NCBI GenBank assembly: GCA_003222395.1 | Contig: QHWB01000031.1 | Span: 312,501 to 376,500, forward strand | DNA from: Acidobacteriota bacterium | GTDB lineage: Bacteria > Acidobacteriota > Vicinamibacteria > Vicinamibacterales > CAVVIG01 | DNA length: 64,000 bases | Direction: 5' to 3' | Shown here: positions 23,177-24,470 of the stretch, one piece after another | Layout: the number at the start of each line of letters is the position of its first letter | Numbering within the stretch: the stretch's first letter is position 1 | The notes under the pieces: model-generated | Told to the model about the DNA's origin: nothing | What the model saw: the letters and a program-made list of their open reading frames with translations, nothing else | The model's database searches: none | Made by a program: the position numbers and the translations under genes

Positions 23177-23219
23177 CAATCTAGCCCTTTGTAAATTGTG
23201 AATTGTCAATTGTAAATTG
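23164..23219. repeat. 7-bp-period A/T-rich repeat (caattaa / taaattg / tgaattg / tcaattg)
   Basis: aatgaacaattaacaatctagccctttgtaaattgtgaattgtcaattgtaaattg; low GC in a high-GC context. Confidence 0.85.
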
Positions 23220-23867
23220 ACCGAGCGCCTGTTCGATGAACGCGTCCTGCGGCAGCGCGCCGAGAATCTCCACCTGATCGTTCACGACCGTCTTCGGCAC
23301 GCCGGTCACCGTGTACCGGCGCGCCAGATCGGGGAACTCCGTCGCTTCGACGGCAATCGCCGTGATGTTCGGGTTGGCGAAGGCGATTTCGTGCGCGAGG
23401 CTGACCGCCCGCGGGCAATGCGGTCAGGTCGGCGTCGTGAACACCTGAAATGTGAGCGGCGTGGCGACGGCGGCGATCTTCTTCCGGTTGCTTTCGGTGA
23501 GATTCGACTCGCGTCCGCCGACGAGCAGCACGGCGTTGATGAGCGACATGAATTCGTAGCCCGCCGGCGTGCCCAGGAACCGTATTCGCGAATCGCGCTC
23601 CTGTCCGTCGCCGTCGGGGCCAACCAGCGCGAGCGCCGGCACGCGATCGACGCCGTATCGCTTCGCTTTCTCGGCGTCGAGCACGAGATTGACTTCGTCG
23701 ACGGTGATCTTGTCCGACAGCGGCGGGAGCTCGTCGATGATCTGACGCGCCTGCGGGCATGTCTCGCAGCCGAGCGTCTGGGTGAAGAACAGAATCTTGA
23801 CCGAATGCCGCATCTCCGCGAATGCCTCGCGGAGCTTCGCCTGATCGGACGGGGACAGAAGGGCCAT
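23181..23867 (-). CDS. Glutaredoxin-like protein disulfide oxidoreductase (two thioredoxin folds), probable selenoprotein (in-frame TGA at codon 148)
   Basis: MALLSPSDQAKLREAF...TLGCETCPQARQIIDEL...LTFQVFTTPT[TGA]PHCPRAVSLAHEIAFANPNITAIAVEATEFPDLARRYTVTGVPKTVVNDQVEILGALPQDAFIEQALGQFTIDNSQFTKG*; TGA at 23424-23426 replaces the first Cys of the second CxxC. Confidence 0.88.
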
Positions 23868-23938: not shown

Positions 23939-24010
23939 GGCAGGCCTAAAGGCCTGCGCTACCGCCTCGACGGCGAACTGTTTCGGTAGTGCAGCCCTTC
24001 AGGGCTGCTC
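23939..24010. repeat. Two GTAGYGC-type palindromic repeats
   Basis: ggCAGGCCTaaAGGCCTGcgctacc and gtagtGCAGCCCTtcAGGGCTGCtc. Confidence 0.75.
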
Positions 24011-24470
24011 ACTTGAACAAATCATCAAATGCTTTGCGGGCGCTCGTCGTCTCGCCGCTCGGCGCGCCGGGGGTGCTCGTCTGGCGCTCGACAGTCGTGC
24101 GCGGCGTGAAGAACACGCAATCGTTGCGCTCGTCTTTCGGCGCGACGCGCGCCGGCAGCTTCGCGCTCTGCGCGCATTCCCACCGCGCGCTCGTGTCGAA
24201 CGAGACGCACTGAATGCAGCTGTGGATGTCGACGCCGCAGCGCGAGCATTTCGCGTCCGCCGCCACCGGTACGGCGAGCAGGTTGCCGCACCGCGCGCAG
24301 CGGAACACCTCGTGCGCCGACATGAGGTTCGGCGTCTTCGGACCCGACGCGTCCTGCAGCACACGGCCCGGTGCCCGCTCCTGCGGCGGCTTCGGCGGAC
24401 GCGGGCCCTTCGGCCCGCGCTGGCCCGAGTCCTGGTAGCCGCGCTGGCGATACTTCCTGTCGTCAGACAT
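24009..24470 (-). CDS. Cys-rich zinc-ribbon-like protein of unknown function
   Basis: FRCARCGNLLAVPVAADAKCSRCGVDIHSCIQCVSFDTSARWECAQ. Confidence 0.65.
   Translation of the reverse strand: MSDDRKYRQRGYQDSGQRGPKGPRPPKPPQERAPGRVLQDASGPKTPNLMSAHEVFRCARCGNLLAVPVAADAKCSRCGVDIHSCIQCVSFDTSARWECAQSAKLPARVAPKDERNDCVFFTPRTTVERQTSTPGAPSGETTSARKAFDDLFK

Follow-up and report, generated by a model that had tools for sequence, protein, structure and literature searches.

A two-domain protein disulfide oxidoreductase of Vicinamibacteria with a predicted selenocysteine in its second active site

Protein disulfide oxidoreductases (PDOs) such as those of Pyrococcus furiosus (1a8l) and Aquifex aeolicus (2ayt, 2ywm) consist of two thioredoxin folds, each with a CxxC-type site. 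In the bacterial selenoprotein thioredoxins and glutaredoxins (UxxC), which are single-domain proteins, selenocysteine (Sec) takes the first position of this motif. Proteins of the TIGR02187 family with a UxxC motif have been listed as a predicted selenoprotein family under the description 'homolog of AhpF N-terminal domain' (PMC1794560 2006; PMC9312934 2022; PMC13188914 2026). They are also termed 'Grx-like domain protein', with ABB15282.1 as an example, and the 2006 survey included such proteins from Carboxydothermus hydrogenoformans and Symbiobacterium thermophilum (PMC1794560). Since these proteins are on published selenoprotein lists, the Sec form of the PDO family is already known to science and has been catalogued since 2006. 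A literature search for Sec-containing PDOs by that name returned nothing relevant, the family being filed as the AhpF N-terminal homolog.

The window, i.e., the whole stretch of 64,000 nucleotides that was analysed, contains a minus-strand frame that starts with ATG at 23867, meets a TGA at 23426-23424 (codon 148) and ends with TAG at 23183-23181. When this single in-frame TGA is read through, the product has 228 residues. The preliminary description had the ORF of 23424-23867 stopping inside a thioredoxin active site, with a truncated protein of 147 aa as the outcome of standard annotation; both statements are correct, and the ORF caller lists exactly that ORF. From the comparison of sequences discussed below, the TGA is almost certainly read as Sec at the active site of a two-domain PDO. 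The features of the gene and its surroundings are as follows.

23181 to 23867, minus strand: PDO gene, identified by TIGR02187 and phmmer matches; the predicted selenoprotein has 228 aa, with Sec at UGA-148
23424 to 23426, minus strand: in-frame TGA, codon 148, predicted to encode the Sec with which the UPHC motif (second active site) begins
23415 to 23417, minus strand: Cys151, predicted resolving cysteine of UxxC, invariant in alignment A1
23757 to 23768, minus strand: N-terminal CETC (Cys34, Cys37; residues 34-37), first active site, from the translation
23181 to 23219, minus strand: A/T-rich tail coding for the last residues, FTIDNSQFTKG, and the stop, beyond the family domain
23394 to 23413, minus strand: putative apical hairpin of a bacterial SECIS, 11-30 nt past the UGA, with loop GGUCA at 23402-23406 and a bulged U
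24009 to 24470, minus strand (same strand as the PDO gene): putative double zinc-ribbon protein of 153 aa, conserved upstream neighbour

The read-through product scores 252.9 bits against the NCBIfam model TIGR02187 (protein disulfide oxidoreductase), for which the curated cut-off is 185 and whose short name, PDO_seleno_TRX, already says seleno. This match is far above chance, spans positions 3-206 of the 209 in the model and ends at residue 214. The phmmer matches to the solved PDOs 1a8l, 2ayt, 2ywm and 1j08 extend across both domains, and these homologs cover the fold of the protein. Thus, the frame does go on past the TGA with homology to the second fold, as had been claimed. In the nearly full-length alignment with 1a8l, 2ayt and 2ywm, the second site has Cys in the solved proteins, whereas here it has the predicted Sec. 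Both folds show the expected motifs: CETC (34-37) goes with RVPA and UPHC (148-151) with GVPK, where xVP is the cis-Pro-type motif, and Pro77 and Pro191 are invariant in the alignment. The proposal that the TGA occupies the first Cys of the second CxxC was borne out as well; codon 148 falls in a column that is Cys or Sec in 17/17 aligned members, and the exchange of one for the other is directly visible among the relatives. Cys37 is nearly invariant, but Cys34 is absent from the lists of invariant and near-invariant residues and is lost in some members. Since Cys/Sec148 and Cys151 are invariant and Cys34 is not, the alignment suggests that the C-terminal active site is the main one. The protein shares the family model, the UxxC motif and a Sec in a thioredoxin fold with the TIGR02187 selenoproteins already catalogued, but it comes from the Vicinamibacteria, where the form occurs in about half of the genomes examined. 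The C-terminal position of the Sec refers to the present PDO, the likeness to ABB15282.1 being one of family model and UxxC only. No second TIGR02187 gene was found in the PDO's own genome.

The tail of the gene (23181-23219) is a repeat-like, A/T-rich stretch, CAATTTACAATTGACAATTCACAATT, amid a G+C-rich region. A CAATT.ACAATT.ACAATT unit occurs in it twice, the copies being offset, and the stretch looks like intergenic repeat DNA that lengthened the frame.

The same frame is found in many relatives. Among 27 genomes surveyed within the same family, a single TGA was seen in 16 loci and none in 6, and across the class 98 of 193 genomes have a PDO of full length that contains a TGA in frame. Twelve of the 193 have a Cys form only, and two of the 98 have both forms. 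One genome, G012, carries its Cys-PDO and its Sec-PDO (L011 and L033) on separate branches of the tree. In the rest of the phylum, Cys forms dominate, with some TGA forms. One PDO from a record titled Bifidobacterium breve MAG (L074) groups with those of Vicinamibacterales; hence, this title is probably wrong, and so is that of L071, titled Acidimicrobiia.

The genome that carries the PDO gene (7.74 Mb, 99% complete) contains all four components of the Sec machinery for which a search had been proposed. Its single tRNA-Sec (anticodon TCA) scores 62.5 bits, and SelA (542 bits), SelB and SelD are encoded as well. Because the tRNA-Sec model also matches long-arm tRNA-Ser near 50 bits, tRNA-Sec was counted only at ≥59 bits. 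SelD itself (L040, C26:9514-10446) is a selenoprotein: its TGA falls in CAGUASK, where Sec usually sits in this protein. The gene for a formate dehydrogenase alpha subunit (L140, C88:37999-39039) also has one in-frame TGA. Given this machinery and these further TGA codons, the genome looks like that of an organism that actively uses Sec in several proteins.

In the fdhF mRNA of Escherichia coli, the SECIS is a stem-loop just 3' of the UGA, with a loop that starts with GGUC. The hairpin in the PDO gene similarly lies just downstream of the UGA, at a distance that suits a bacterial SECIS, and has GGUC at the start of its loop; it consists of 7 bp with one bulged U, and the loop, GGUCA, begins 17 nt after the UGA. 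The bulged U, on the 3' side of the stem, sets it apart from the fdhF element, and several relatives lack the bulge. In the single sequence, the hairpin does not exceed chance, as an equal stem arises in 7.5% of synonymous recodings. Folding of 47 nt gave z = +0.52, with a UGACCGC/GCGGUCA stem as the minimum-energy structure instead, and an Rfam search of the window gave no match. The evidence for the hairpin comes from its conservation. With a stem of at least 5 bp and a loop starting 16-18 nt after the UGA as the criterion, it is present in 27/30 Sec copies, where synonymous recoding predicts 9.8, as against 4/10 Cys copies, where 3.5 are expected. When the loop codons +5 to +8 are held fixed, stems of at least 6 bp still number 27 among the 30 Sec copies versus 15.5 expected. 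Stems are formed by differing sequences (GCGGGC/GCC(U)CGC, CCGGGC/GCCUGG, CCAGGC/GCCUGG, GCGAGC/GCUCGC), and the hairpin persists across synonymous and non-synonymous changes. Exceptions are six Sec copies in which the loop starts with CG rather than GG and three in which the stem has only 4 bp. Thus, of the SECIS-like element described from the single sequence, its presence was confirmed and its conservation added, whereas its significance in that sequence alone was not upheld.

The loop codons are constrained as well, and only in the copies with TGA. Of the 25 Sec copies with Ser at codon +8, 24 use AGC, which accounts for 108 of the 495 Ser codons in the rest of these genes (p = 2e-14), and at codon +7 (Val), GTC is used in 24/30 Sec and 1/10 Cys copies (p = 1.5e-4). 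Since residue +8 is Ser in 25/30 Sec copies and in 0/10 Cys copies, the RNA signal probably fixes the amino acid at this position, too. Because of the relatedness among Sec copies, the counts are not independent. The second stem proposed earlier, UGACCGC/GCGGUCA (7 bp), which includes the UGA itself and excludes the apical hairpin, does exist as the minimum-energy fold. It is perfect in 17/30 Sec copies versus 12.1 expected with the loop codons fixed; on these numbers it was left out of the signal and is probably incidental.

Could the TGA be a true stop, behind which the remainder of the gene is a decaying remnant of a protein with a functional 147-aa N-terminal domain? The standard genetic code reads it this way, and the ORF of 147 aa is complete as it stands. 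However, pN/pS values from comparisons of the PDO gene with eleven Sec copies of the same family are 0.10-0.34 for the 45 codons after the TGA versus 0.42-0.70 for the 45 codons before it. Hence, purifying selection is stronger in the part that the standard code leaves untranslated, which is also the better conserved one. Moreover, the TGA occupies one and the same codon wherever the loci of relatives were read, in many genera, and the Cys copies read on through that codon. A true stop is therefore very improbable. An even smaller chance is left for a sequencing error or a pseudogene created by a point mutation in this strain, in favour of which is that TGA lies one base away from TGC or TGT. 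The preliminary description itself had named a miscalled base and disruption of the frame in relatives as refuting findings. The same TGA recurs in the 98 genomes of the class, which refutes an error in practice, and nearly all TGA-bearing copies in the class have exactly one stop, this TGA, with an extra TAG in one genome (G053). A TGA at one codon without other disruption in the relatives argues against both a pseudogene and an error.

Near-cognate tRNAs are generally known to read through UGA, and a near-cognate tRNA for Cys or Trp, or general suppression, might decode this codon without SelB. In 12 of the Sec-PDO genomes, a search for the wing domain of SelB indeed found no match. However, tRNA-Sec at ≥59 bits is present in 11 of these 12, the exception being a genome (G158) that is 77% complete. 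Across the class, SelB was found in 86/98 Sec-PDO genomes but in only 2/12 genomes with Cys forms only (Fisher p = 7e-7), i.e., ten of the latter lack it. Three Cys-only genomes reach the tRNA-Sec level (G030, G071 and G161), and the others stay at the tRNA-Ser level of the same model. The restriction of the nucleotide constraint at the hairpin loop to TGA copies also speaks against decoding without SelB, which we consider highly unlikely, if not quite as remote as an error or a pseudogene.

The preferred reading, a cytosolic PDO with Sec148 inserted by means of SelB and a redox scheme based on UPHC, has a probability of about 0.96. The product would be a disulfide oxidoreductase of two fused thioredoxin folds. 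SelB with Sec-tRNA-Sec would bind the stem-loop, and Sec would be put in at UGA-148, yielding the UPHC active site. By analogy with the PDO and thioredoxin families, the selenolate of Sec148 would attack substrate disulfides and Cys151 would resolve the mixed bond as a selenenylsulfide, whilst the N-terminal CETC and an NADPH-dependent thioredoxin-reductase-like enzyme may return the electrons. When selenium is lacking, translation would end at the one-domain product of 147 aa.

A tree of 54 PDO proteins contains a main Vicinamibacteria clade of 33 rows (support 100/99), most of which are Sec forms, with six Cys rows nested within; a few Sec rows (L045, L055 and L057) fall outside it. The Sec/Cys labels need six changes on the tree, at least four of which are forced by well-supported branches, and most of the nested Cys forms come from genomes without a SelB match. 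These forms are read as Sec-to-Cys reversals, a direction that we infer, since the tree was rooted at its midpoint.

The 153-aa protein encoded upstream is found near the PDO gene in 21 loci, with its CxxC pairs conserved. Its gene is immediately upstream and in the same orientation, except in L072 (opposite strand) and L076 (at a distance of 2.5 kb), and it adjoins both Sec and Cys forms of the PDO. A Pfam search with this protein found no family, and NCBIfam gave weak zinc-finger matches alone, below the cut-off. Its C-terminus, AFDDLFK, is conserved. Upstream of it lies a gene for a MetX-like hydrolase, and 3' of the PDO gene follow a convergent amino acid permease gene and an agmatinase gene; this gene order is kept in many close relatives. 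As a tentative and rather unlikely possibility, the Sec-PDO and the zinc-ribbon protein might make up a redox unit of two genes, assisted by selenium, in the Vicinamibacteria, in which the Sec-PDO, for example, keeps the cysteines of its neighbour reduced or metal-loaded. If true, this would be an undescribed partnership.

In the open-licence papers searched, no description was found of the wide spread of the Sec form in Vicinamibacteria, of the Cys reversals or of the neighbour gene. Standard gene calling splits or truncates the PDO gene; in this class of soil Acidobacteriota, a large proportion of genomes may consequently be annotated with a PDO of half its size. The data also provide, within one bacterial family, a clean natural series in which Sec and Cys forms can be compared. 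As the Sec clade includes nested Cys forms and most Cys-only genomes lack SelB, the selective value of Sec in a two-domain PDO becomes directly testable.
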